From Fragilaria crotonensis (lineage: Eukaryota; Bacillariophyta; Fragilariophyceae; Fragilariales; Fragilariaceae), in contig JAKSYS010000538.1 in NCBI GenBank assembly GCA_022925895.1, forward strand, positions 1-43,251: 43,251 nt of DNA, read 5' to 3'. Position numbers and translations under genes: made by a program. Position 1 is the stretch's first letter; the number at the start of each line of letters is the position of its first letter. The notes below the pieces were generated by a model. The model worked only from the letters and a program-made list of their open reading frames with translations, did no database searches and had not been told where the DNA came from. Shown piece after piece: positions 2,256 through 36,005 of the stretch.

Positions 2256-5046
2256 ATGTCGGAAACACACAAGAAAGGTAGCGCAACAGCGGGCCAAAAG
2301 GGAGCTGTCTGGAATAAGAGGACAAGAAGGGCATCATCGTCAACTCTTGGCTCGCGCGTTCGACAGCGAACATTTCCAAGTGAAACCGCTAGGCGCCTTA
2401 TGGCGACCATGGCTTTGGATTGTGGCAACCCTCGTGCGTTGTTGAAGATGACTGGCGGGGTCGTCGGTCATGTTGATTCGCTTATGCCTAGATCTGATTT
2501 TGTGGAATGCGATTCGGGTGACACCACCTTTCGTGACAACAAGGTTGGCGGTCGTCGCAAGACGGTCGAAGAAGCCGACAAATCCGACGAATCATGTACA
2601 ACTGTTGGTGGTGAAGATGGGGATGAGAATGAACAAACCATTGACAAGCAATCGAAGAAGAAGAAGCGGAAAGTCCTTATGCTGCTTTTCTATTCCTTCG
2701 AAGCCGCAAATGGCACGTACATTCTCGAAGTGTATTCCAAAGCAGGATGTTGCGGAGTTTGAACGTCTTTTCAACTCCTTCCAAAGCCAAATGTCATGTC
2801 CGCCTGGGTGTGACAATCGTCGCGTCGACGTTAACGCATTGATCATCAAGACTCGGGTTGTCACCATTATTTGGGCACTTCAGCGGCTGTATGGTGTTGA
2901 CAACGTTGTTTGCCAGAGATGCGTGGAAATGTGTGGAGAGCGCGTCGACGGTAAAGTTTTGTATAAGCAACACTTCGTAGAGATAGTTGCCATGGACGCT
3001 GTTTTGGCACGAACTCTGAGTCCCCCACGTGCTGTCACTGGAACAGAGACTGTTGACACTCCTGTCAGGTTCCTTGCTCAACGAAAAGAAATGTTGGATC
3101 CGAAATATGATCAATTGTTCCGCGCGTTTGTCGTCGTTGTCCCCGACGGCGCAACGTACTACTGCCACCGCGAGAGGCGGCGTGCCTGCATTGGTGTTGC
3201 CAACGCACTCATTCCGATGGACACGTCGTGGTTGAGAGTGAAACGAAATGGGAATCGCGGCGACCAATTCGCTCTTGGAGGCTACGTCTTGCGACTTTGG
3301 GATGGGCAACCTTACTGGAAGTTTAAAATTCGCCGTGGAGAATCAAATTTCCAGCTGCGACCAATCCCAAGGAATCCGGCGGAGCGTCTCTCGTGGAATG
3401 TCAAACGGTCCAATTTGAAAGTCTTGTGTGCGTACCAGATGGCTGATGAAGTGGGACCAGCTATGCCCCCAGATTTTGTGGACGGGAAACAGCTTCAACA
3501 TTGGCCGTCGTTGAGGCGCGCTTACCGAGCGGCTATCAACAACTCCCCTTCATCGAGGCGCGGTTGTAGGCACTACGCCCAATCACATCTTCACCGCCGT
3601 ATCGATCCGATGAAAACACTGGTCATCGACCCGAAAGAGGGAGATGTGGACCTCCGCATCGCGATTCAGGTTAAGCGTGCAGGTGACGAGAAAAAATTGG
3701 ATTCTAGAAACGGACCCAAGCGTGATCGACTTGCACTTTCTCGTGAGTCGGTTGTGCAAATCCGCTACTTGCTGGACTTGGGAAGCGGAGCCCCGAAATT
3801 GGTTTCCGAAGTTTGGGAACACGCGAGCACTGCTACAAAATGGAATCGCCAGTCTGCTCGGCGTGGACTGGGTGATATGGGATCCATGCATCCCATTGGA
3901 ACACGCATTATGAAGGACAACAAGACTCGCGAGAGATACAAGACATCCCGTGGAACTCTCCAACAAGAAGCGTTGCGTAAGGCAGTTGTTGCGTCCGCTC
4001 GGCTGGCGGCTGTAACCATCCCTACTGTCCTGCGGATCATACAGGATGTTGAAGAGGATGGTGACCTTGACCCTCCCGAAGGTGGAATGAATGGTGATGG
4101 AGGGTGTCTGCGTGTGTCGTTCACGATGGATGTGAGCGTTGACCTTGCGAATGCTTCCCATTTCGATGTGAATGATGCGACACAAGGGTTCAGCATATGG
4201 ACCGAAGACGAACCTGGCACAACAAAGGAATGGTACTTCGTCTTGCCGAATGTATACGGGAGGAGGAGCCCCAGTGTGGACGGAAAACCCGGTGACATTT
4301 ATCATGGGGTTGCCATCAAGCTGACGCATGGTGTCCTAATTGGGTGGGATGGTCGCGTCATACGGCACTGTACGTCCGTAATGGATCGTGGGAGCCCAGC
4401 AAATCACGTGTACGGTTCGTTTTTTGCGGCGAAGACTTCCGTCGTGGCGTACGGTGCGCGAATGGCTTTTGTGCGCGAAGCGTTGAGGAGAGTCCATGCA
4501 AAGCAGGACCGAAGACGGGATCGACAAAGAACTGCTACCGGCGAATCTGTGGGAAAGGCTGTGACATGTGTTGGTGCGGGTGGTGAAGGACTTGGAGATG
4601 TTTTCGGTGCCCCGATTCCAAAGAAGAGTAAACAGGATGATATGACGATGGATCGTGGTTCTGCAGATGAGAGGTCAGTTGATGGTGAGGAATCTTGGAG
4701 TGACTACACTTACGCTAGTGGCGGCAGCGATTCCACTGGTGGTAAAGACGTTGGCTTCGTTTTGGAAAGGGATCCATTTGTTGAACGCGTGGAAGACGAT
4801 TTGAAGGAAACGAAGGCTGGTGATGTTGTTGCGGTTGGTAGGGAGTCGGCGTGTCCAGTTGCACAGGATACCGGTCCGTTAACGTGTGGTTTCCCTCGTG
4901 AGGTGTCGGTGCCTGGCAGCTGTGATCGCGCACCAATTGATCTCGTAGAATGTGACGACGAGATCGGCGGTTACCTGGATTGCGTGGCGCAGTGCCCTGG
5001 TGATGTCGCATCACGTGATACGGCCGAATTTCGAGGAAAATTCTGA
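2256..5046 (+). CDS. Unknown protein with possible 2OG-Fe(II) oxygenase-like domain, two exons
   Basis: Exon 1 starts at the ATG at 2256 (MSETHKKGSATAG) and reads a basic, Ser/Arg-rich N-terminus ending in KKKKRK, a likely nuclear localisation signal. A GT-AG intron at 2673-2745 (73 nt, phase 0) joins it to exon 2 (DVAEFERLFNSF...), which runs to the TGA at 5044-5046; total about 905 aa. Around 4120-4440 the product has a block with an HxD-like motif (ASHFDVND), a Trp/Pro-rich stretch, then GVLIGWDGRVIRHCTS and a downstream Gly-Ser-Phe-Phe segment. This pattern is like the HxD...H core of 2-oxoglutarate/Fe(II) oxygenases, including TET/JBP-type enzymes. The family assignment rests on that pattern only. 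The C-terminal about 180 residues are acidic and low complexity. The gene converges with the helicase gene on the opposite strand. A nucleic-acid-modifying role would be speculation. Confidence 0.6.
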
Positions 5047-5055
5047 TCGACGTAG

Positions 5056-5750
5056 AAAAATCCGTTCTAGGGAACAACACTCGAGTTCCAGTGTGGCTGC
5101 TGGTTTCATCGGCGATTATGTTGATGGTGAACAACGAACAAGCGGTTGGGAATTGCATCGGAGGTGTCAGAACTTTTTGTCGAGAGAAGTTGAGGTATGC
5201 GGCACTCGAAACGCACGTTGTGAACACGGATGCGGTGGTCGGCAGCCGAATCGGAGCGGTGGCTATGAGGTGCCTGACTTTGGTGGCAGGGGCCAGGATG
5301 ACAACCGACGGACTCCTTGCCGCGGTCGTGATCCTGGTTCGTGGCTAGGTGAACGGAAGCGCCCGCGTGGTGGGTTTTGGTGTGACACACGAGTTCGTGG
5401 CGAGCATTGTGACTTGGGACGAATCAATGGTGTGCCTGACTGGGAGCCTCGTGGACGTGGCGGGCACTGGGAACATCATCACGGAGAAGACTGCGTCGAT
5501 GATCGTTGGTCTGGCATTCCTCTTGCCGGATCACACCGGCAAGAGGTTCGTGGAACCACCAGTGGCACCCCGACGCGATGGACTGGTATTACCCCGCGGA
5601 GATCATTGTCATGATTTGCCGTCGGGTGGACGGAATCGTGGTGATTCGTCGTATAGGGGGGAAACACGAGGACGTGAATCATGCCTGATGAGGAATGATG
5701 GAAGGACGCCTGACGTAGATCAGCAACCTGCCAAATGTTTTCGGAAGTGA
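5056..5750 (+). other. Possible C-terminal continuation, Arg/Gly-rich frames
   Basis: After the stop at 5046, open frames continue on the plus strand. One to 5614 has RGRGG, GGRGQDD and RPRGG, and another to 5750 ends in Arg/Gly/Asp-rich sequence. The composition is like RGG tails of RNA-binding proteins and unlike random sequence. It may be a further exon of the preceding gene or a frameshifted tail. Removing a short intron starting at GT 4992 and ending at AG 5055 (64 nt) would join the frames, but the splice sites are weak. I cannot decide this from sequence alone. Confidence 0.3.
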
Positions 5751-5889
5751 AAGTGAAAGCGAAACGAAAACGCAGCGATAAGTCGTGAAAATCATAAAAC
5801 GAATTATTGTTACGCTGACTGGAGTTTTAAGACAAGGGAAATCAAGTACATAGAATCAATGAGGACACCAACTATCCATGTATCGGTGT

Positions 5890-8800
5890 TTATAATGCTG
5901 TCTCCTGGGAGCTCAAGAATTGACAAAAAGATTCCTGGGTGGTGTAAATTCGTTCGATGTATTCCTGGAAGGTTCCCGGCATTTTTGAGCGGACAAAGTT
6001 GTGTGAAAGTAACCGTCGCAATCTTCCCTTCACGGGGCAGCTGTTGATTTCGTGCTTTGTAGCACCTGCTGCACCTTTGAAAACCCAGCACTCACAGCAT
6101 GCTCGCTTGTTCAAGTAATCCTTTTTAAAGGGACAAAGTTTGCGATCGTGTGTACTCACACCACATGCGTAACACATTTTCCATTGGAAACACACGTCTT
6201 TGTTCTCTGGCAGAGTCTTACTCCCAGTTCCTCGCAAGAGAGGTATTCCACGACATGTGGTTTTCCGACACACAAGACATGCCAATGACAGTTGGGTTAA
6301 TACACGTCGCGAGGCACATTCGTTCGTTCGGGCGTGATGAATGCGGCTTGTGGCGTCTTTTTGGAGACTTGTCAATGGAATGTTGCGACAAAAGTGGCAG
6401 GCACCGCAATTGTGATCCATGGCTCTCCCAAACAAAGCTGACAAGATCTTGATTGCACATCCCCTTTGTCCTTGGGAGGTGTCAGATAACCAATCGCGAA
6501 CTCCACTCGATGTCAGAACAGTTTTGAAGTTGGAATGGTCTTGTGAAGAAATAAAGTGCTCGTTCAAGAGCCGAGTGTAGCGGTGCTCGTCATCCTTGGT
6601 TCGGTGATTGGACAATTTGTCGGGAACGGCAAATAACACTTGGCCGAAGGAGGTTCGCATGTAGCTTCGCAATCTACCGAAGGCTTGTACTATCTGCATA
6701 GTATCGTACAGGTATCCTACGCAAACCAAATATCTGCAGGATGGATTTTCATTGCCAACCAAGCCCATGGTTGTCGATATGAGGATGTCTAACTTTCCAT
6801 TGCTCCATGCAGTGGCCGATTCTTCCACTTCTTGGTGAGTAGAATCGGAGGAAACAAACTTGCATTTGTATGGGGTGGTGGTGGAAAGCTGCTCGAATAA
6901 AGTTATGCCATCCTTCTTCTCGGCAACAATAATGTGAGCAGCACAAAGTGGACCTGATAGTCCTCCACTTGAGTCCATCTTTTTCTGTACGAATCGGGCG
7001 GCGAGGTTTACGTACAGAGATGAAAAGGCCACCTTGATCTTGAACCCTTGCGGAAACTGACCCACAACATGATTCCCATGGATTACTTTAAGGTCGCTCA
7101 TGTCATCGGTTTTGGACAAGCCGAGTTTCTTTGTAAATTTAGAAACCGCAAATGTTGGCATTGATCCACTTAACACGACGATGGGAATACCCAAACTTGG
7201 AAGTTTGGAATAAACCTTATATGTGTCGCGGAAACTTGTCTCAGAGAGGATGGTGTGGGCTTCATCTATTACAATTTTGTCGACAACATCCACCCAAGAC
7301 TTGAAAAGCTCCCCAGAGTAATGGAACAAATTGTTTAAGGCATCGAGGTTTAAGAACAGTAGGCTCGGGAGATTTTCTCTTTCTCGGAGTTCTTCCGGCA
7401 AAACACCATCAGAAGTGATGTCTTGCCCCGTGAAAAGATGGATGTTGGCCTTGAGTCCATGCTTCTCGAAGGCTGCCGAACATGTGGCAAACTGATATCC
7501 GGCCAGGAAGCGATATGGAGAAACATGGATGATGGTCTTGGAACTCTGGTTTGTAAGGAGGCGAGCAATAGTTGGGATTATATAGCATTCCGACTTCCCC
7601 TCACCTGGAGCTAGTAGAGCAATGCAATGTTGTGGTTTGGTGAAGGTTGTTCCATATCCGAACTCGACCAACTCTTTCTGCTGTAGTGACAAGTAATTGT
7701 TGTTACTGTTGCTTGCTGATGCAGACATCGGATAGCGAAGACGCATTGCCGCACGCAGGTCAGCCAAGGAAAGTGTTGCCGGGGATCGCGAGGTTTGATG
7801 TGATGTATCACCTATTGCAAAATGATATGCGCTGAAGTGTGTCTCCTCAGAACCTACTTGCTGGCTGGAGTAGGTCATCGAGTGCGTCAAGGAAGAATGA
7901 CCCATTTTTGAAGCTCCAATGGTGCTTGAGGAAAGGAAGTGATTGGGTTGGCCACCGGTCACAAAGTTGGAGACGCCAGCCCAAAAGTGCCGGACCTGTG
8001 TCATGTTTGGGACGGCGGATAAAGAAAAGAGATCTCGAATGATGTGTGATGGCCTGACATCAGAACGGTTGTTCCTTGTGGGGAAAATCAATCTGGGAGC
8101 ATTGGAACAGCTGGGAAAGAAGCTTCCTTTTGTTTGGACAAGAGATCGAAACAATAAGAAGTAACGAGTAATGATGGGGGGTAACTTGCGTTCAATTTCC
8201 TTACAAGTGCGTTGTGACATGGCATTGAAGCCTTTCAAGGAAGAAAGTGTGTAGTAGATTGTATTGTTGGTGAACAAGCAGTGAAACATGGTTGGATCAC
8301 GCAACTCATTCAACCTTGCAGAGCCACCACCAAAACCATGAAATGCCATCTCCAACAGTGCTGTCAAATGGTCAAAATGATCCAGAGGAAAAACAGAATC
8401 GGGCTTCCAAACGGGACATATATCTGCAAGGAAAAGGTCGCCGGTGTCGTCATCGACAACAACTTTTATGTTGCTCAGAACATCAACTACTGGCTCCCAC
8501 CAGCTCCCGACCGCCAAGTTTGATACTGCCACATTCATCAAACACACCGTCTGCGGTACAATTTGTGACCAGTCATCAAACCGAAAAGAAAACTGATCCA
8601 CCGTGATGTTTCCTATTTCATCAATTGTTGTCTTCCTCCTTTTGGGAAGTCGGCGGTGCATTTCACGAATTTGTCGAAGCATCGGAGATAGAAAATGGAG
8701 AACATGCGATTTTCTTACAGCCATGATAAGAGCGGGACCGTGTAATGTGAAAGCGTCTTCCAAAAACGAACATATAACGGAACAAATGGCGGCTTTCAAA

Positions 8801-9864
8801 ACTGATGCAACCTTTGCAATTACGGAAGAAATGGTGTCACAAGAGATCATTTTGATTTTGGAATCTTTCTTTTCAACGCGGAATCCCGTCATCAAACAGA
8901 ACTCAACTGCCAGGGGATGATGTTGCACGGAAGGTGGGATTTCAAGCATCAAATCCTTCAAGAAGTATGCAATTGAAAATCCGTCTCGGAAGTCAAATGA
9001 TTTGGCGGCAAAGAGACCACGTCGGTATGCAAATGATAAAAGCTTCTTGAGTTCAAAAAGTAAAGTAGATGGATCGTGTTGCATGGTGTAAGTCCAGCGT
9101 TGCGATACGTCTTCAACTTCATTGCCTTCAAATGTTTGCAACGCAGCACGGAGATTACCCGGCACCATCTTTATATTTTTCTGAGCATAATTCAGAAGCC
9201 AAACTTCGGCAAGTTGGTGAAGTTTCACCAGAAAGGACTCAGTCGCCGGATTTGGCGGTGAATGAATGGAGATAAAGTCAGTTTTGACTTTTTCAACAAA
9301 CTGCCTGACACCGCCACAACGTGAAATAAGTGGAGTGAACATATGAGTGTACGTATCATCGTGCTTCTCCCTTTGTGGAAGGAAAGGTAGAATTGCAGCT
9401 CTTGCCTCATTATAATCAAATTGTTGCTTGATCCTGGATGGTTCGGCACCCTGAAAAAATGATGTGACCTGTGATTGCGATACATATCTACCACATGAGA
9501 GCTTGATAAGATCAGCTTTCTGAAGTCTTGTTCCATTGCATCCCCATGTTTGGCAGTGACGATCAGCATTGGCCTTCCTCAAAAATGAAGGTCCGCATAT
9601 GCAGGAATAGCCAGAATAGGTATTTTTGTCCATTCGGAATTGTTCAATGCTTCCGGATGCCTTTGCTATGTTGAGTTGCATGTTATATCCATGAAGAAGA
9701 GATCGGACGGTTGTGATTCTGCTATCCATGCCATGTTTCTTGAGGTGGTTGCGAATGGATCGCTCATCCAATTTGATTGCTACATGTTTTTCACATTTGC
9801 AACAGCAGAGACCGAATGGGGAGAAGGTGAAGAGTGATTCTGGAATTGACTCGAGAGGAGTCAA
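5890..9864 (-). CDS. RecQ-like helicase, telomere-linked helicase (TLH) type
   Basis: An uninterrupted 1324-codon frame. Near the N-terminus is a C2H2-type finger (C21, C24, H40, H44), similar in layout to the finger domain before fungal TLH helicases, then a second Cys/His cluster (C88-C109). Residues about 120-740 have no motif I recognise. The helicase core follows: Walker A GEGKS (754-758), DEAH (867-870), motif III SGS (899-901), motif V around 1030 and motif VI QAFGRLR (1060-1066). The C-terminus has Cys clusters near 1153-1159 and 1197-1204, then a CCHC zinc knuckle (C1231, C1234, H1239, C1244). DNA unwinding driven by ATP hydrolysis in the nucleus is expected from the family. The first codon of the open frame is TTG directly after a stop, so the true start is probably in an upstream exon. 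A frame with ATG at 10102 is a candidate, but I found no clean splice pair. The gene points towards the telomere. Confidence 0.85.
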   Translation of the reverse strand: MTPLESIPESLFTFSPFGLCCCKCEKHVAIKLDERSIRNHLKKHGMDSRITTVRSLLHGYNMQLNIAKASGSIEQFRMDKNTYSGYSCICGPSFLRKANADRHCQTWGCNGTRLQKADLIKLSCGRYVSQSQVTSFFQGAEPSRIKQQFDYNEARAAILPFLPQREKHDDTYTHMFTPLISRCGGVRQFVEKVKTDFISIHSPPNPATESFLVKLHQLAEVWLLNYAQKNIKMVPGNLRAALQTFEGNEVEDVSQRWTYTMQHDPSTLLFELKKLLSFAYRRGLFAAKSFDFRDGFSIAYFLKDLMLEIPPSVQHHPLAVEFCLMTGFRVEKKDSKIKMISCDTISSVIAKVASVLKAAICSVICSFLEDAFTLHGPALIMAVRKSHVLHFLSPMLRQIREMHRRLPKRRKTTIDEIGNITVDQFSFRFDDWSQIVPQTVCLMNVAVSNLAVGSWWEPVVDVLSNIKVVVDDDTGDLFLADICPVWKPDSVFPLDHFDHLTALLEMAFHGFGGGSARLNELRDPTMFHCLFTNNTIYYTLSSLKGFNAMSQRTCKEIERKLPPIITRYFLLFRSLVQTKGSFFPSCSNAPRLIFPTRNNRSDVRPSHIIRDLFSLSAVPNMTQVRHFWAGVSNFVTGGQPNHFLSSSTIGASKMGHSSLTHSMTYSSQQVGSEETHFSAYHFAIGDTSHQTSRSPATLSLADLRAAMRLRYPMSASASNSNNNYLSLQQKELVEFGYGTTFTKPQHCIALLAPGEGKSECYIIPTIARLLTNQSSKTIIHVSPYRFLAGYQFATCSAAFEKHGLKANIHLFTGQDITSDGVLPEELRERENLPSLLFLNLDALNNLFHYSGELFKSWVDVVDKIVIDEAHTILSETSFRDTYKVYSKLPSLGIPIVVLSGSMPTFAVSKFTKKLGLSKTDDMSDLKVIHGNHVVGQFPQGFKIKVAFSSLYVNLAARFVQKKMDSSGGLSGPLCAAHIIVAEKKDGITLFEQLSTTTPYKCKFVSSDSTHQEVEESATAWSNGKLDILISTTMGLVGNENPSCRYLVCVGYLYDTMQIVQAFGRLRSYMRTSFGQVLFAVPDKLSNHRTKDDEHRYTRLLNEHFISSQDHSNFKTVLTSSGVRDWLSDTSQGQRGCAIKILSALFGRAMDHNCGACHFCRNIPLTSLQKDATSRIHHARTNECASRRVLTQLSLACLVCRKTTCRGIPLLRGTGSKTLPENKDVCFQWKMCYACGVSTHDRKLCPFKKDYLNKRACCECWVFKGAAGATKHEINSCPVKGRLRRLLSHNFVRSKMPGTFQEYIERIYTTQESFCQFLSSQETAL

Positions 9865-10102
9865 TCAAGTCGGATGTTGTTTTCCGTGTTTCGAATGCTT
9901 CTAATGAAAGCTGTTGTTGTTGGACAATGGATTCGGACACAAACGAAACCTCCGCTTTTCTTTTCAAAGAGGTGGAGCAAAGCATGGTGAAGATGGGATG
10001 TATATGTGAGGGAGTGAACGAAAATGTGGCGCCACATGGAATTTCAAATGCTTTCGATGTACTGAAGTCTACGGCAGGAACTCCGTTGCTCACGATGCAC
10101 AT
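9865..10102 (-). other. Candidate 5' exon of the helicase gene
   Basis: An ATG-started frame at 10102 runs into the helicase N-terminal region in a different phase. An intron of length 3n+1 would be needed to join them. Candidates such as GT at index 165 with AG at 252 of this segment (88 nt) fit in length but not in consensus. The encoded peptide begins MCIVSNGVPAVDF and has no known domain. Transcript data would settle it. Confidence 0.3.
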
Positions 10103-10119
10103 TCCCTTAAGTAAATATG

Positions 10120-10250
10120 ACTCAGGATGTTCAAAAAATTACTCAGGATGTACAAACCCATATCAGAAATTACTCAGAATGTATCAAGTAAAAACATATG
10201 TACCTGAAGAATTTTTATGTGTTTTTAGCCCCGCCCCCTTAGGGCCAAAA
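10120..10250 (-). promoter_or_regulatory. Conserved 5' block of helicase copy 1 with three CTCAGGATGT motifs
   Basis: ACTCAGGATGT occurs at 10120-10130 and 10141-10151, with the variant ACTCAGAATGT at 10172-10182. These are followed by GTATCAAGTAAAAACATATG and a C-rich end with CCCCCTTAGGG (10235-10245). The same order of elements is found 5' of copy 2 (12794-12945). Position upstream of a helicase gene in both cases suggests promoter or element-terminus function. In gene sense the block starts with CCCTAAGG, directly abutting the truncated copy 2. Confidence 0.6.
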
Positions 10251-12530
10251 AATTATAGGGCGATACATGAATTATCATTTTGCTTCTTTGATTGCCGATC
10301 CGTCTTGCAATTGTGGGAATAATGAAAACTTCAGATTTTCCTTCACCAGGGGGGAGAAGTCCAAAGCAATGTTGTTTCTGCATTGAGTCATTGTGACAAC
10401 CGTATCCAAACTCAACAAGTTCCTTCTGTTGAGATGAAAGATAGTTGTGACCATCTGATGAAATAGCCTTCGGGTACCGTAGCGACATTGCCATCCGAAT
10501 ATCACCCAACGATAGTTTGCACAAATGGATTTTTGACATCTCGTATGATGTCCCCGATGGCAAAGTGATAAGCATTGAAGTGTGATTCAGCCCGGTCGCT
10601 TGTTTGAATAAGCAACACCATGTGTCATCTTGAGTGCCCCATTTTCGATGCTGCCACAGAGCTTGCCGTGGATGTGAAAAGGCATTTCCATCCTCATCAT
10701 CACCAGTAACAAATGATACACAAGCCCAAAACTGTCGAATCTGCCGCATATCGGGTGATGAATCCAAATTGAAAATATTCCTGATCACATTTGGAACACC
10801 AAAATTTGAAGGTGTTCTCCGCTTTGGAAAAATCAAAAGGGAATCGGATTGCTCAAAAAGATTTTCATTTGCATTGACGAGAGATCGGTACAACAAAAAG
10901 TATCGAGTGATAACAGGAGGGAGTTTTCGCTCGACTTTCTTGAACCGACGACGAGAAGAACTGTTAAAACCCTTCAGTGACGTCATGGAGTAATAAACAG
11001 CATCATTGCTGTACACGCAGTGGAACATAGTCGGTTCTGTCAACTCTCTCATCCTTGCCGAGAAACGCCATCTTCAACAGTGCCATAAAACAATCCAATT
11101 GATCAACGAGGAAAGAAAGTCCAACATTCCAACAGGGAGTGACATCAAGCAAGGAAATGTCTGCCGTGTCATCATCGACACGGATTCTGATAAATGTTGA
11201 TGGATCAACCACAGGCTCCCACCAGGAACCATCAGCCAAATGAGTTAATGACTCACGCATCAAGGTGACAGCTGTGGGGACTATGCGTGACCAGATGTCG
11301 TATGGAAATGCGTGTTGGTCAACAATGATATTTCCACCTGAGTCAATCATAGTTTTTGCCTTTTTGTAGTCGTTCATGCATTTCGTATTTGTCGAACCAT
11401 CGGTGACAGAATGGAGTACGGAGCCTTGCGAATAGATGACACAAGCAAATCTCCAGAATGGGTGGATGACTGCTCTGAAAAAGCAGATGACGGAGCATAC
11501 TGCTGCTTTCAGAAGGGATGCTACCTTGGAGAATAACGATGACACAGTGTCACAGGATATCAGAGAGATTTTTGATTCCTGAGCAGATACACGAAAAGGA
11601 AACATGAGACAGAATTCCACCACAAAGGGATGCGTGGCAACTGATGGTGGAACTTCAAGCAAAAAATCTTTCAAAAAATATGCGACTGCAAATTCATCGC
11701 TTTCATCAAAACCCCTTGATGCAAAAAGGCCCTTGCGATAGGAATAGGATAAAAGCTTCTTCAATTCAGGTAGTAAGCTGGTTGGATCATGCTGCATCGT
11801 ATAAGTCTTTCCCTGTGACATACCATTGACTTCACCAGCATCAAAATTTTGTAGTCCAGCGCGGAGATTCCTGGCACCATCAAAATATTTCTTCTGCGCA
11901 AAATTCAAAAGCCAATTTTCAGCTTGGTTATGAATTTTGATCAGAACTGTCTCATGCATTTGGCTCGGTGGAGAATGGATAGAAATGAAGTCATTTTTAT
12001 CCTTCTTACAAAGTCTTGTGGACAAACACAACCATCAATGATGGGGTGTACATGTGTGTGTACGTATGGTCGTGCTTTTCCCTGCGTGGAAGGAAAGGAA
12101 GCAAAGCCGCTCTTGCCTTGCAGTAATCAAATTGACTGAGGTACAGTGTTGAAGAACTTGTCAATTTGCACCTCTGAAACAAATTGACCACAACACAATT
12201 TGATGAGCTCAACCTTCTGGAGACAAGACGGATCACAACCCAACCTTGTGCAGTGACGGCGTGCGTTGTCCTTTCTTGGAAAACTTCACCGCAGATGCAT
12301 GAAAATCCCTTATAAGTACTGTTGTCAATTCGAACGGCTCAATTGTTCCAGCAGCCTTTATGACTTCCAGTTTTGTTACAAAAGTATCAAAGGGAACGGA
12401 TAGATGCGGCCCTGCTGTCAAAACCATGTTTTTGACATGCTCACGGATGCATCTCTCATTGATCTGATAGACACTTTTTGGGCAGAGTCGACACCCAAGT
12501 CCAAAGGGAGAAATGGAAAATATACCTTGA
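10246..12530 (-). pseudogene. Second helicase copy, frameshifted and lacking its 3' half
   Basis: Translated pieces on the minus strand align in order with copy 1. They include the N-terminal finger region near 12530-12430 (SPFGLGC, CIREH), a YKGFSCICG segment, FDYCKARAALLPFLP (about 12130), KNDFISIHSPP, the long middle region (12031-11003), EPTMFHC and Walker A PGEGKSE (about 10345). The reading frame breaks at about 12420, 12300, 12015 and 11050. The second His of the first finger is replaced by Asn. Similarity ends just after HVSPYNFLA, the strand after motif I, where copy 1's 5' block begins; DEAH, motifs III-VI and all C-terminal zinc clusters are absent. It is a non-functional remnant in the same orientation as copy 1. 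Confidence 0.85.
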
Positions 12531-12793
12531 AGTGATGCAGGGGTGACTGTTGATCAGATGCTTGCAAAGGAGACATGTTGTTGGTAGTCACCTCTTGTAT
12601 CTCAAGGGTGGTCATCATGATGTGATAATGGCGCTTGTACCAGGAGTGCCGAGTGCATAGTTCAAAATTGGGCGGCAAAAACATTTTGACCATACCTGGT
12701 TTAACATACACGTAAAAACTATCATTCAATGAGTTGATGCACCTAAATTGCGCCATATTTTTGTACGAGCAAATTGTACGGATAGCGTTTTCC

Positions 12794-12945
12794 CTCCGGA
12801 CGTAGTCGTTCCTAAGTAAAAAACCCTCCGGACGTATAAAATTCCCCTCCGGACGTACAAATTTCCCCTCCGGCCGTATCAAGTAAAAATATATATACTT
12901 GAGGATTATTTATCTACTTTGAACCCCTTTTCCTTAGGGAACCAT
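12794..12945 (-). promoter_or_regulatory. Conserved 5' block of helicase copy 2 with four CTCCGGACGTA motifs
   Basis: CTCCGGACGTA lies at 12794, 12826 and 12847, and CTCCGGCCGTA at 12868 (spacing 32, 21, 21). They are followed by GTATCAAGTAAAAATATATA and CCCCTTTTCCTTAGGG ending near 12939. This matches the block at 10120-10250 in order and spacing (31 and 21 there), although the motif itself has changed from CTCAGGATGT to CTCCGGACGT. Beyond the TTAGGG the two copies no longer resemble each other, so this marks the element boundary. Confidence 0.6.
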
Positions 12946-23006: not shown

Positions 23007-23776
<770 letters not shown>

Positions 23777-24587: not shown

Positions 24588-26439
24588 TTACCGCACGGGT
24601 TCAAAATAAGACCGTATCGATCTCACCCCTGCTATCGCTTTCTCCTTTGCTCGTTTTGCGCTTTCTTTGAAAATTGGTACATTCACCGTTAGCCAATTCC
24701 GAGTTACCCATAGTGGCTTATGCATATGTTCGTGTTCTTCACGAAGTAATAGTTCGCGGACTCTCGGTTCATATTGAGACGCTTGCCATATACTTCTCGC
24801 AGCTGCGCTGAAATCTCTCGCTTTTCCGCATGGCACGGTCTGCTGCGTCGCTCCCGTGTAACTCTTCGTTCCTTATCTTCCATAGCTTTTGCCATTCCTT
24901 CCATATCAAACAAATCAGTTTAGTTTGCCATCGGTGACCGCTGCGCCTGTCCTGTGTGCCTCGTTGGGACCGCAACCTTGCATAATGGTCGTCTTGAATC
25001 CGGCTCCATTCCGCACTGAACCTCCCGTTGATCGTTTGGCGCCAACCGATCGAATTTTGCTGGGTGATCAACGCTCGAACATCAGTGGAAAAGAAAATTG
25101 GCGATGCTTGAAACTCGACTTCCTCATTTGTGACCATCCAGTCTCTTATTGTTTCGTTCCATAAATTGCGAAGTAATGGATTTGTTTCTTCTTTAGCGTG
25201 GAACTCATCAATGATGTGATGAAAACTGTCCCTCCATTCTGACGACTTGCGGCCGTACACTTAAGGATATGGTCCCTGGTTTCCCGGCATGTTCCACAAC
25301 CTGGGCACATTCGTGTTCTGCTTTCTTGCTTGTTTAAGCGTTCAAGAGTGGGTAAGCACTCGTGTACCAGTTTTGTGATGTGTATCCGTTTCTTTATCAT
25401 CTGTTTCATCGCCTTTCCATGCGCCCGCCAGTTAATCGTAGCCATAGTTGCTTCGGTGTACCCATACTTGGCTTGAATGTATTCTCGCAATGGTCCTATT
25501 GTCGCCCGGTGTCGGATATCTTGCGCATACTTCGAAGTTTTTGTTCCTCTGGATAAACAAGAAATGCTCCTGTATTCGGTGTCATGAGTGCATATGGATG
25601 TGCGCGTCCATATTGATCTTGATACCTCCCGCTAAATCATCAGCGTCGACGTTTAACTGCGCCCGTAGAGTAAGTCTATTGTACGCCTTCTTCTTGTCCT
25701 GGTGGCCTTTAACATAGACCAGTTTGACTCCTGGCATATGTGTAAGAGCATATCGGATTTCAACGAGTAAATCCCATTCAGGTATCAAAGGATCAAGGGG
25801 GGTGAGATTCCTGGGAAGTGCAGTCGGGGCAGATGCCGCAGGGCCCCCGTCCCGATCTCGTCCGAATATTGTGTCAAGCATGCTTTGACTATCTGTCCCG
25901 ATTGTACCGTCCCATGGTTCAATCATGTTTGTATATTCAGACAGCCTCAACAAAAATCGCAGAATTGACAGCATGCCACTGCATTCTGCTCGGTAGGAGT
26001 CCATTACGTATCCCCTTGATGGTCCCATTCCCGTCGCTACTCGTTCGCCTTGGGATGTGCTAATCATCCATCCGAATGATCCGTCGGTGCCATACTTCTC
26101 GGAACCATCGCTCCCGGCTTCAAATCCTTGGTGTAACTCTAAACATGCTGTATACGGATCCACAAATAAGTCTGTATGCCGCAGGAGATCGACCTCCCAT
26201 GCATCAAGCTGTTGAACGTAGTCGTCAAACGTAGCCACTGGTAACGGTCGCGGTTGGATACTCCGAGACAGCTTGTTGATTATTTCCCATCGATGCATTC
26301 TTCCTGCCTGCTGAATTTCCACGGGTACTGCCATATTCGGAATCTCCCCCCTCTTCGATATTGAGATTGCTTTCTCTATACATTCGTTGAGTGTCTTCAA
26401 GCTTCCGACATTTGACATATTCCCCTCCCATTCGTCGCA
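24588..26439 (-). pseudogene. Element A: RNase H, CCHC finger and C-terminus
   Basis: RNase H motifs are visible in order: GSDGSEKYGTDGSFGW (Asp), SYRAECSGML (Glu), IGTDSQSML (Asp), then VKGHQDKKKAYNRL and LNVDADDLA (final Asp). These would remove RNA from the RNA-DNA hybrid. A finger CPGCGTCRETRDHILKC follows at about 25265-25315. The rest to 24588 is a Trp-rich helical tail ending in SIRSYFEPVR. Frame changes occur near 25510, 25250 and 24740. Confidence 0.8.
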
Positions 26440-29184
26440 CGTATAATGTCGATCTGTAGACGTAAGCAGGGTAAGATATCCGACTTTCTGTGGTAGTTAG
26501 TAACCAAGGCCCCAAGGGTTGGACCAATGTGCCGTCGGGATAGCTCCATAGCGCATTTGCTTTTTTTCCATAATTTCCATGATACTGCAGATGGTAACTC
26601 TTGATGCACCTTCATCCACCTCGGACGATTGCTGAACAGTGATTCTTGACCCGTGAGTTTTGCTTGATCTAACTGCGTTCCCTCTGTCGTCGCCAAATCC
26701 GATATTGTCAGCGCTCCCAGGTATAATCGACAATAATTGATTCGCCTGATTTCATTATCGCTGAATCGACCTGATGCTAATATCCGATCCATAATGAATT
26801 CATCGTGACGTCGCTCTAGTGGTGCAACACCCGTGTAGTCCAACTGTATTCCTGCTTTGATAAAGGCCAAATATCCACGCAGGGAACTTAACCATTTGGA
26901 TTCCAGATGCGGGAGATTATCGTACACATTTTCCATCAACGGTAGTGAGGTCCCAACACAGTATTGTGCCCAAGCTACGGCACATCGGAGTAGCCTTCCT
27001 GCTGTTGTCTTGTTGCGCCAATGCCTCAAGAATAATTGAACTTGTCCGATACCTTGTTGGTCATACAATCTCCTGAAATTAGCGCCGCCGTATTCCAATG
27101 GACCGTATATGATAGCTCGTTTTGTGTTCCGATTATATCCACATTTCGCAATGATGATTGACATCGCTTTCCGTTGAATATTGTTTAATTGAGCTGCCGT
27201 GAAGTGTGAATTTGCGAGGGGATAACCGATACTTGGTAAGTAGCACGCGTAATAGAACGTCCATGCTTCTTCTGGGGTCAATGAACATTGATACAAAAAT
27301 TCGACCGAATTATCGCTCTTGGATTTCAGTTGTCGATATTGTTCGCGCTGTGTGCCCGCCGGATCTTTGTAGTGACCCAAGGTTTTGTGTGATGCATATG
27401 GAGACAAGTACGTGAGTTCTTGATCGATTCCTGATGCGGGATCTTTTACGCGGACTCCTTTGAACTGAGACGAATCCGTCATTAGGATAGGGGCTCCTGT
27501 TACCGTGAATTGCCAAGCCATAACGTGATACGAGCACTTCGATGGTTCTAATGCTCCTCCAGAAATCCCAAGCAGTTCCGCCCAGAGTTGTGCGTTATTT
27601 TCCAACTGGGTGATAATCTGATGGCGTGCATTTTCCGTTTCCTCATGATCGAACAGGTTGGTTTGCCCGTTTGAGTCATCGACGAAGCCGACCATACCGA
27701 GTTCCACTGTTTCTGATGTACTTGGATTTTTGTAAGTTGCCTTTGCTGCTTTCTGGTCATAGCAATCGTAAAGTAGACTCGACAAGAAACACCATATAGC
27801 AGGAGAATTACCACTTCCTTGTCCTGTTCCGTATATTGGGTGAGTATTGCTATGCGTGTAGCTCTCTCTGCTAATCCCATTTCGGTTCTGATGTGATATC
27901 TTGCGTGCTTTAGCGTCCGCGCGTTTGACGCTGTCACTGAAGGGGCACTCAAATGTCTGACTTGCAACCATTGCCAAGTTTGGAACAATCCGGTCGTAGC
28001 ACGAGGCTGCATCGTAATTCGTCTGCACCAATGTTTTTCTTGTTAAGCGGAAATCTCAAACTGAAGTTCTTCGATGAATACTGGGTCTATTGCATTCCGA
28101 TGAGGTCGCGATCCATATTGGCCATCGTTTAGAAGTGATAGACTCTCTGCGTGATACAATGCTGATCGCCATTTTAATCCCATCGCTAGATTGTAATCTG
28201 CTTCATACAGATGGATAACTCTGGTACGATGGATCCGAATGTTCCCTGGTTCTTTGAACAGTATACTATTTGCCACTTTCTGCCACCGGCGATAGGAGTA
28301 TCCTCGAGTCAGGGCGTAGTTTATCAAGTGCAAATGAAGTTGGAACAAATCGGACTGCATTTTGTCAAGTTCTTCCCGATTGGCTTTGTGTTCTTCATCT
28401 TCATCTTCTGGAATGTTGGAATATTGATGCTTTGCTATCAATGCTTTGTAATGCCCGAGATGTAATCCTGATGGTGAGGTCGCAGTGGATTCTCGCCATA
28501 CTTGTAGTTTACTCTTCATCTCGCCCTCGGTTATGGAGGCCATGTGTTCCATTGTCGCTATTTCTGCTGATTGTTTCAAATGATCTAACAACAGTCGAAG
28601 ATTGCTTTGCATTTCCGGATCGTGTTGGTAAGTTCCTGTTAGTAGTTGTTTCGCTGCCGAACGCTGGCCTGTGAATCCAAGGTCTGTACTCAACGGTGGA
28701 ACAGTGAACGGAGTCCCTTGCGCTTGTCCGAAATGCTTCTGATTCCGTGTCCGAAGATGATGCAAAACTTGAGTTGGGATATCAATCTGTTGCCACGAGG
28801 TGCACTCTTTTGGATCCATCGTCAAATCTGTCGGTATTTCGATACGTGTAACGCCTTGTCGCTCATGAGTCAGTCGTAATCGTCGCAACTTTGAGAAGAG
28901 TTGGTTGAGGGCTTCCGCTTTTTTGTAGATGTCGCAACCTTGTAGCTTGATCCTGATCACTTGCAACCGCCGATGCTGTCAATTCGTCGATCTTTTTTCT
29001 TCTTTCGCTTGCCCTTACTTCGTAACTGGATTTGACCAATTCTTGAACTTGGCGTTTCAATTCTTTGAGTAATTCTTTACACGCTTGTGTGGTTCTGGGC
29101 ATCTCTTCGGATGGAAAAACGTCCTGCCACTCGTGCTGTATGACCTCCCAATTATCCAATCGTGTCCTCGCCATTGATAAGCAC
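26440..29184 (-). pseudogene. Element A: reverse transcriptase
   Basis: A coiled, charged linker (to about 28860) is followed by the reverse transcriptase. Motifs are WRESTATSPSGLHLGHYKAL, VANSILFKEPGNIRIHR, HLYEADYNL, NDGQYGSRPHR, NYDAASCYDRI (first catalytic Asp), YGTGQGSGNSPAIWC and GFVDDSNG (catalytic Asp pair). All catalytic residues are present. Frameshifts lie at about 28918 (A-run), 28050 and 26440. The product copies the element RNA at the nicked target. Confidence 0.85.
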
Positions 29185-34041: not shown

Positions 34042-36005
34042 TTATAGTCTCTTGAAGAATTCCGTAATCGCAGTTTGGGTTTTACCGTCGTGTTCGTACC
34101 GTGCTCGAGCGTTTCGCATGTACAGTAACCACCTCCTCCTTACTGAATGACTTGCACGAAGTAAATCTCCCAGTGGACGTTCACAGAAATGTCGGTCGCC
34201 CGCGCTTACGAGTTCAGGATGGTTGTGAAGATGAGTGATCTCAAATAATTCTGGACAACGCAATCCTCGCATACCCTGCGAGTCATGGCCATGTAGTTTT
34301 TGGTTCCGTGCTTTCCACATCGACATACTGAATTCGTGGGTTGCTCGAATGATTTTCCGCATAGTCTGGAGACCCTTTGCCTGGATTATTTCCTCCGTAT
34401 CACCTGCTGGTAGGGATGCTAGGTATCGCCACTCGACTGTGAAGAACCCTCGCATGGCTGCAGACCATCCAATCCGTGACTGTTGTGCCACCGCCTTCAC
34501 GATCGAAGATTGATGGAGACTCGGATACTCCGTCATATCCAAATGCTGGTCCTTGTTTTCCAGCCAGTTTAACAACATATGCTTGAGCGCCTTGACGGGT
34601 GGGAGCAGACTCGCAGTGTCTATCGCTCGTCTAAACAGACCAAGGGCTGTCTCTCGTCCTGGATTTTCAATACATTGGAGAACGTGGTCGTCATCTTCCT
34701 CCACCCGAAAACAGCATGGACACAATCTCATGGTTGGGTCTTTTATCTTCGCCACTTGGTACCTCCGTAGTCCAGTGTGTCTCTGGTTGTTCATGAACTT
34801 GACTTGTGCAGTGTGCTTAGATGGGGTCAGCGACCGGCAGAACTGGCTCAGTAGTTGAATATCAATCGTATTCCACTCGTCGTCGGTCCACTTGTGACGA
34901 GCTTGTAAATGTTGACGCAAATGATAGCCGTTGATGTGGAAGCGGATACACTCCTCCACCTGTCCTACTTGCTGAATGCCTTGAATCCAAATGGAGACTC
35001 TCGACTCTGGAATATGGACCGTGATTTCTCTGGACTGTCGTCTTGTGGTACCATTGCGATATTCGGTAGCTAGTTCGTCCGCGCGGTTGTTTCGGATGAC
35101 ATCCTTGCTTGGATTTTTTGTACTTTGATGACCTTTTACCCATGTTGGTAGAAGCTGAGAGCGTAGAGAAGTTCGATACGATCTTATCTGGGCAAGGAGA
35201 TCTGAGTTTGTGGGTTGTTTCCACCTGGGCTTATGGGCTGAAGTATGCTTCTCGACGTTCGAAATTGCTGCTTTACTGTCACACACCCACCGTAGCTTCC
35301 CCCTGAATCTTTGTGCCCCACTGGTGAACGAGCAACGACAGTAACAGGAGTGGAGCAGCCAATCCAGCAATCTCGCATCGAGTCGAATTAGCAACATCTC
35401 TGGGCCCGTCGACTGGTCCCGATCCTTCGTACAGGATGATATTCTCTGAAGTGCTCAGTGTCCACCCGAATGTACCCCTAGCATCTTTCAAACCGCCGTC
35501 GCTAGCAATCGTGAGATTCTTTTTCGAGCGGCTGGCTTCCCATACTTCTGCTTCAGATACACATAGTCGGACTGAACTGAGTAACCGTCGTTGATAAGGG
35601 GGGTAGCGTTTCCATTTGGATGCTGTCCGTACTATTAGTGAAAAGATCAGCGGGCTCTTCCCGCGGCCGGATATTCTGCTTGATTTCTTGCAGATTGTCT
35701 ATCGGTCTCCTCTTCCATAAGTCTCCATATCGTAAATAATTTGACGAGATATAACGTCGCCATAGTCGTCGTTGGTGGGCGGACGGTCGCTCTGGCGAGG
35801 CCACCCAGGTATGGTTTCGAAATGTGGAGGCCTGTCACCCCTAGGAGATGTTGGGAGATCTTTCTGTGGTCGTGGAGCAACACAAGTCAGACAGCTTGAA
35901 ACATTGCAGGTATAGGCGAACCAAATTTATATCCCTTTGTTGAACACGAGAGTATCGGGATAGCCGATCAGGATCCATGATTGCCGTATCCTGCTTCCCT
36001 TTAGA
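34042..36005 (-). pseudogene. Element C ORF2: RNase H, zinc finger, C-terminus
   Basis: The segment WRRYISSNYLRYGDLWKRR (about 35765-35710) precedes RNase H pieces KDARGTFGWTLSTSE, RWVCDSKAAI (catalytic Asp) and TWVKGHQSTKNP with NNRADELATEYRNG (final Asp). A finger CPCCFRVEEDDDHVLQC lies at about 34680-34730. A Trp-rich C-terminal region follows (GWSAAMRGFFTVEW, FSMSMWKARNQKLHG), ending TAITEFFKRL. The last 1.2 kb is one open frame; breaks lie near 35340, 35500 and 35850. Confidence 0.8.

Follow-up and report, generated by a model that had tools for sequence, protein, structure and literature searches.

A subtelomeric repeat unit encoding a RecQ-like helicase in the diatom Fragilaria crotonensis, with a fixed border and truncated older copies

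Helicase units in the subtelomeres of F. crotonensis

The reading frame at positions 5890 to 9864 (reverse strand) of contig JAKSYS010000538.1 of Fragilaria crotonensis, which codes for a RecQ-like helicase of 1,324 residues, is probably one of the protein-coding copies of a self-spreading repeat unit in the subtelomeres of this diatom, the units being joined to broken chromosome ends. From the centromere side toward the telomere, the unit consists of a fixed border (CCTAAGGGGGCGGG), a leader of ca. 380 bp, a gene that combines zinc fingers, a tyrosine-recombinase-like segment and the RecQ-like helicase, and a tail. Units are stacked head to tail, and those on the centromere side are shortened on their telomere side, mostly at differing points. 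This pattern of border and truncation is the more important result of the analysis. The window, i.e., the whole stretch of DNA analyzed, is the entire contig (43,251 bp, C490 below); the assembly searched comprises 62.1 Mb in 881 contigs, which are numbered in the same way.

A fixed 5′ border

Comparison of the flanks showed that the units start sharply at CCTAAGGGGGCGGG, typically ca. 380 bp upstream of the helicase gene. Genome-wide, and allowing up to one mismatch, this sequence gave 79 matches (49 exact), compared with 2 for the reversed control pattern. The matches were spread over 35 contigs, lay on a single strand in all 18 contigs with more than one, and were present on 20 of the 23 contigs with helicase matches. 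At the loci analyzed closely there were 27 borders, 23 followed by a helicase match within less than 900 bp (at 374 to 385 bp in 11 of them) and 4 without one. The first ca. 65 bp past the border remain similar even between subfamilies with protein differences of up to about 45%. Upstream, the same 27 borders represent 24 distinct junctions, two of them differing by just one A, and a C precedes the border (position −1) in 15 of the 24 (p = 3e-5). Misjoining of repeats during Nanopore sequencing and Canu assembly could in principle have produced arrays and truncations. This is a draft assembly in 881 contigs, and its probable source was sequenced with Nanopore R9.4.1 and short-read polishing, which makes indels in repeats likely (PMC9476933; cited works are drawn on here and below in excerpt). 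Such an artefact is, however, very improbable given the 49 exact recurrences of the border and the 24 differing upstream flanks.

Among 47 border matches, a single one has a telomere-like word in the 60 bp before it (random 60-mers: 1.1%). The units are therefore not separated by telomere repeats, and addition of units onto telomere tracts was rejected as an explanation. The single match with such a word is at C754:10445. Three units (C588:8561, C754:12757 and C389:17909) have the same 14-bp stub, CCTAAGGAGAAGGC, directly before the border, with different flanks beyond it, which would fit a border that is favored as a site of exchange. Similarly, an identical 25-bp upstream flank is joined at the border to two different units (C23:1482 and C121:83993), which suggests exchange exactly at this position.

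Older copies are cut at the next border

On 11 of the contigs mapped, an older helicase copy stops within 0 to 15 bp of the border of the next unit (on C411 the match overruns it by 77 bp). The cut falls at residue 788 on C490, 640 on C84, 597 on C551, 753 on C413, 204 on C588, 759 on C389, 1085 on C271, 376 on C121, 367 on C592, 182 on C754 and about 177 on C411; the C389 junction is irregular, with an overlapping match that extends to residue 800. The next unit carries a helicase copy at 8 of the 11 junctions. On none of the 11 contigs was the lost remainder of the older copy found distal to the cut. Homologous exchange joins matching positions, and nested insertion would leave parts of the interrupted copy on either side. 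Here, the older copies end at mostly differing residues, each joined to the same fixed point of the next unit, and the remainder is not found; erosion or breakage of the chromosome end followed by joining through the border fits this best.

Nested insertion of a DNA transposon (of the tyrosine-recombinase, Crypton-like or another class) into a subtelomeric safe haven, accompanied by target deletion or later distal loss, is in our estimate quite improbable. The fixed 5′ end, the excess of C at −1 (15/24), the internally deleted copy on C23 and the recombinase-like motif series described below speak in its favor. However, no fixed right end appeared in the flank comparison, in which flanking duplications were not looked for; at none of the 11 junctions was a distal continuation of the interrupted copy found; and the strand coherence of the borders (18/18) is against it.

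A multicopy family at chromosome ends

The helicase family has at least 55 matches on 23 contigs, a lower bound, as the best 35 of 190 candidates were scored. On 20 of the 23 contigs the outermost copy is oriented to the nearest contig end (sign test p = 2.4e-4), and on 20 of 23 it lies less than 10 kb from that end. All copies are on a single strand in the 14 contigs out of 14 that have several helicase matches. As a control we used another dispersed repeat, the family of the window frame at 2452 to 5046, for which the corresponding figures are 22 of 47 and 15 of 47, with positions that are indistinguishable from uniform. Thus, the helicase homologues are not evenly spread, and the gene that a preliminary description of this DNA had noted near a telomere belongs to a multicopy family that is biased to contig ends and has a consistent orientation.

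Telomere arrays at the very start of a contig were found in four cases (C23, C490, C592 and C754; this list is complete), and all four contigs end in units pointing to the telomere. Large helicase copies are present on three of them, and C23 carries a remnant, in which the leader (94 to 95% identical to those of C84 and C389) is followed by residues 1273 to 1324, the tail and then the telomere, i.e., it is an internally deleted copy. Relatives of the minisatellite that adjoins the telomere on C490 are also outermost on C754, C411, C578 and C413. Interior telomere arrays were seen on C427 (70351-70733 and 97101-97149), in opposite orientations and ca. 26 kb apart, possibly an old fusion or insertion.

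Several observations weigh against the joining of units to broken ends. The borders taken alone point toward the nearest contig end in just 20 of 35 contigs (p = 0.25), which is not above chance, and most contig ends are not proven chromosome ends. Three helicase contigs are exceptions in orientation (C12, C847 and C389), and borders or copies are interior or point inward on these and on C122 and C273. The unit directly behind the cut has no helicase match on C389, C592 and C754. The failure to find the missing remainder rests, for C271, C389, C84 and C121, partly on the best 35 of 190 candidates or on contigs that possibly stop short of the telomere. Not all junctions are independent, as the cuts on C411 and C754 nearly coincide and C490 and C754 are nearly identical. 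Finally, no copy was demonstrated to be intact end to end.

The unit in the window

The genome contains 19 silicon-transporter matches, 18 of them above the cut-off, and the host is therefore a diatom, as had been supposed from the letters of the window. Three of the matches are in a single open frame of 1,456 residues (C97:29749-33762), a tandem-fused transporter. The terminal part of the window is organized as follows:

1-116, no strand: terminal telomere array, C-rich strand (CCCTAA/CCCCTAA), from Tandem Repeats Finder (TRF), the sequence and a genome pattern search
179-515, no strand: subtelomeric 16-bp minisatellite (TRF), with relatives at the four outermost ends named above
871-1179, no strand: subtelomeric 37-bp minisatellite (TRF)
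5634-5889, reverse strand: 3′ tail of the helicase unit, matching the terminal unit of telomere-capped contig C23 as far as 5634
5890-9864, reverse strand: helicase reading frame, 1,324 residues (open frame list, translation, Pfam)
9865-10243, reverse strand: 5′ leader of the unit, with short G-rich tandem repeats (sequence comparison)
10230-10243, reverse strand: fixed 5′ border (flank comparison, genome pattern search)
10244-12938, reverse strand: older decayed unit copy, with its border at 12938 and helicase residues 9 to 510 and 515 to 788, cut exactly at the start of the next unit

Since the contig begins with a TTAGGG/TTAGGGG array (positions 1 to 116), a true chromosome end lies at a distance of 5.9 kb from the 3′ end of the frame, and transcription of the gene is directed toward it. 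The preliminary description had placed the gene within 10 kb of a telomere and transcribed in this direction, and was right on both points. It had also delimited the frame correctly, but its coordinates cover one unit only and not the decayed second copy directly upstream (10244 to 12938, reverse strand). The listed start of the frame is a TTG immediately behind a TGA, and the first Met is residue 46, just past the first finger. In 6 of 8 copies tested (C84, C389, C588, C847, C413 and C271) the leader contains an ATG from which the frame stays open as far as the finger block. This is not so in C411 or in the window copy, and the 5′ end of the latter may therefore be damaged or mis-assembled.

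A RecQ-like helicase core

All the motifs listed in the preliminary description were found in the protein: GEGKS (residues 754 to 758), DEAH (867 to 870), SGS (899 to 901), QAFGRLR (1060 to 1066), an N-terminal finger (C21-x2-C24-x15-H40-x3-H44) and a CX2CX4HX4C knuckle. A second finger-like motif, C88-x-C90-x12-H103-x5-C109, lies downstream of the first. In the first finger, conservation among aligned copies is 22/22 for C21, 23/23 for C24, 23/26 for H40 and 22/26 for H44. The parts of the protein map to the window (all on the reverse strand) as follows:

9538-9804: two N-terminal zinc-finger-like motifs, residues 21-109 (alignment; structure model with a predicted local distance difference test score, pLDDT, of about 74-85)
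7870-8325: tyrosine-recombinase-like segment, residues 514-665, with R517, K544, R625, H656 and Y665 (motif evidence; profile searches negative)
6670-7638: RecQ-like superfamily 2 (SF2) helicase core, residues 743-1065 (Pfam and structure searches)
6388-6459: RecQ-type zinc motif C-x16-C-x2-C-x2-C, residues 1136-1159 (alignment, spacing comparison)
6133-6174: CCHC zinc knuckle CX2CX4HX4C, residues 1231-1244 (alignment)

Pfam matches were DEAD (2e-13) and Helicase_C (8.4e-6), and structure searches place the core among RecQ helicases, which supports the earlier designation as RecQ-like. The spacing of the four-cysteine zinc motif is identical to that of Escherichia coli RecQ and was reproduced in 8 of 5,000 shuffles, although Pfam PF16124 does not reach this motif. 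Other RecQ hallmarks are missing. The aromatic-rich loop QWGHDFR is replaced by ETSFR and motif VI GRAGRDG by GRLRSY, and RQC and HRDC domains gave no Pfam match in the protein at E ≤ 1. The sequence profile alone does not pick out RecQ: the best PDB sequence matches are LGP2 (DHX58) and DEAD-box proteins, and the family profile scores a cellular RecQ fragment of the F. crotonensis genome no better than DeaD, which gives no clear grouping of the core with cellular RecQ. An ordinary cellular RecQ that happens to sit near a telomere would have the RecQ fold and zinc spacing, but this explanation is scarcely credible and was rejected. The many copies are biased to contig ends, other loci of the genome (C218, C502 and C701) exceed the RecQ_Zn_bind cut-off, and the RQC and HRDC domains are not matched. 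Neither a reverse transcriptase (Pfam, helicase frame) nor a transposase domain (profile searches, whole protein) was matched. A viral origin was likewise rejected; one scan of viral contigs with the family alignment gave 16 pattern matches and no relative.

A tyrosine-recombinase-like segment

Between the fingers and the helicase there is a series of motifs in the order GSARxxEL (R517), LKG (K544), Q[VI]R (R625) and GHS...Y (H656, Y665). These five residues are invariant or nearly so in the alignment of open frames, and among all aligned copies, decayed ones included, they are kept in 22/25, 22/26, 20/26, 17/22 and 17/22, respectively. Their spacing is near that of XerD, XerC, lambda Int and Cre. 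A strict R-K-R-H/W-Y pattern, defined like its looser version after the sequence had been inspected, is found in the window protein, in 7 of 7 paralogues and in all 4 of these control recombinases. It also occurs in 9 of 5,000 shuffles and in none of 97 other frames (frames with family motifs being left out). The looser version, present in 1,574 of the 5,000 shuffles and in 9 of the 97 frames, has no discriminating power. The idea was prompted by what we take to be a likeness of the segment to fungal proteins, which is not counted here as evidence.

Profile searches count against a recombinase. The segment had no significant match in PHROGs, Pfam or PDB, and the box II histidine (HxxR) is absent, with T or R at this position. 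Profile comparison with the four recombinases was not significant (probability 0.1%); its best-aligned columns were those of the GHS...Y box, and with a longer alignment the best columns were elsewhere. The structure model of this half of the protein is too weak to speak for or against a recombinase fold (mean pLDDT 44, below 50 almost throughout); no recombinase appeared among the structure-search rows for this low-confidence model. A tyrosine-recombinase-like domain at residues 517 to 665, as suggested by the sequence motifs, is thus for us a serious lead and not a result.

Selection and recent spread

Ratios of nonsynonymous to synonymous substitution rates (dN/dS) were calculated for 14 open stretches from 13 copies, leaving out pairs with fewer than 250 codons or less than 50% identity. 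They were 0.10 to 0.21 in 35 older pairs with computable dS and 0.32 to 0.44 in six recent pairs (dS of 0.03 to 0.06); one further pair was almost identical and the remaining ones were saturated. These values indicate that the protein has been kept by purifying selection, that several old lineages coexist, and that copies have recently spread between contigs. Together with the fixed border and the internally deleted copy, this recent spread supports the selfish behavior that had been proposed at the outset. Over 3.8 kb, contigs C490 and C754 share 99.8% identity and are possibly two haplotypes, and near-identical blocks of more than 2 kb are also shared by C783 and C592 (99.5%) and by C551 and C578 (99.7%). 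Besides, different parts of the window protein have different copies as their closest relatives. As to a decay by C-to-T changes similar to repeat-induced point mutation (RIP), TGA accounts for most stops (112 of 150), but opposite them there is mostly a residue other than Arg, and many fall in gaps; this excess looks like out-of-frame reading, and no conclusion was drawn from it.

The near-identical blocks, the recent pairs (dS of 0.01 to 0.06) and the changing closest relative would all be expected from plain subtelomeric duplication, in which terminal blocks spread by homologous recombination or break-induced replication, like yeast Y′ elements. The helicase would then be a passenger or a backup telomere-maintenance gene, and the border the mere start of a conserved repeat. 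Y′ elements are known as end repeats that amplify upon telomere failure (PMC4522978). We nevertheless hold duplication alone to be unlikely, as mostly differing residues of the older copies are joined to one fixed point and not at matching positions.

How the units may be joined

Under the preferred reading, i.e., joining of units to broken ends, a chromosome end would erode or break inside a unit, and the raw end would then receive a new unit, attached by its fixed 5′ border and followed by a telomere. The encoded protein probably takes part in this attachment or in the copying; the fingers and the recombinase-like domain would work at the border, and the helicase might open the donor DNA. 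Later recombination between ends would add mosaics, a step supported by the near-identical stretches on different contigs. The polarity of the units is reversed compared with that of telomeric retrotransposons, and reverse transcription primed at the end therefore does not explain the arrays. A border-specific DNA reaction would explain them, and the protein has plausible parts for one. A bolder proposal, and a tentative one that we would not yet favor, is a DNA-based end-capping mobile element, in which a unit with its own telomere is joined to raw broken ends by the recombinase-like/RecQ-like protein that it encodes. By type IB-like strand transfer, a recipient 3′ end held by this enzyme could be attacked by the 5′-OH of the unit border, which would give exactly such joints as those observed. 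The fungal TLH genes might in that case be relics or relatives of this kind of element.

Other features of the window

The large open frame at 2452 to 5046 (forward strand), located between the helicase unit and the telomere, belongs to the dispersed repeat family used above as a control (at least 53 matches). It has no Pfam match above the cut-off; its HxD...H series presumably recalls 2-oxoglutarate oxygenases. Two regions on the reverse strand, 25582 to 28966 and 34042 to 35397, are possibly decayed retroelements, with a weak reverse-transcriptase match (RVT_1, E = 0.23, frame 26397-28031) and a weak RNase H match (E = 0.016), both under the cut-off. A perfect (TCA) array of about 103 copies (23161-23468) lies inside open frames on both strands.

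Comparison with known systems

To our knowledge, the function of the subtelomeric RecQ-like helicases of fungi is still open. They have been known from fungal chromosome ends since 1998, when they were found in Ustilago (as cited in PMC5576322), and are described for Ustilago, Colletotrichum, Agaricus, Fusarium and Mycosphaerella (PMC7593156, PMC10532341, PMC5576322, PMC7473861, PMC12857005, PMC4522978) and, in works cited within the same papers, for Magnaporthe and Metarhizium. The diatom family resembles these TLH/UTASa/DUF3505-OrsD families in being subtelomeric and multicopy and in having a RecQ-like core. Each of the 24 subtelomeres of Colletotrichum has a member of one of three helicase-DUF3505 repeat families (PMC5576322), and in their single orientation relative to the telomere these are like the diatom units; the Fusarium families share the presence of truncated copies (PMC12857005). 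On the other hand, the diatom protein has a RecQ-type zinc motif that is not detectable in Colletotrichum or Agaricus (PMC5576322, PMC7473861), and OrsD (DUF3505, PF12013), the marker of several fungal relatives, gave no match in the genome at E ≤ 10. Of the likeness to TLH, the location, copy number, core and selfish behavior thus stand and the OrsD signature does not. That the diatom family works like TLH is well supported, and that it is TLH, by transfer or by descent, is unproved. Neither a fixed border with cut older copies nor a recombinase-like segment is described in the portions of the fungal TLH literature compared. Among diatoms, the word "helicase" is absent from the main text of the Phaeodactylum telomere-to-telomere paper (PMC9266582), and among the papers listed for this subject, judged by title and the opening of the abstract, none reports subtelomeric RecQ-like genes in a diatom, most subscription journals falling outside this scope.

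Yeast Y′ elements likewise have a helicase gene in a repeat that adjoins the telomere (PMC4522978), but the diatom units are joined at a single fixed border and not where sequences are homologous, a distinction made here by description and not by sequence. HeT-A/TART, MoTeR, FoTeR and Athena also form arrays or copies at ends, with truncations and one orientation (PMC5537684, PMC12857005). HeT-A/TART have their 3′ (poly A) end toward the centromere (PMC5537684), FoTeR and MoTeR have their 5′ end toward the terminus (PMC12857005), and a 5′ truncation is described for Athena. In contrast, the diatom unit has its 5′ border toward the centromere, loses 3′ parts and contains a helicase frame with no reverse-transcriptase match. 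Academ and other RecQ-helicase transposons are also mobile elements encoding a RecQ helicase (PMC3627910), but the diatom protein has no match to a transposase domain.

That a second, stramenopile lineage has the arrangement known from fungi implies convergence, transfer or deep ancestry. With the fixed border and the cut copies, what was a vague role in telomere maintenance becomes a model that can be tested, that of a DNA unit joined to broken ends. If this model is true, chromosome ends would be rebuilt without telomerase or retrotransposition, and with an enzyme that can be assayed.

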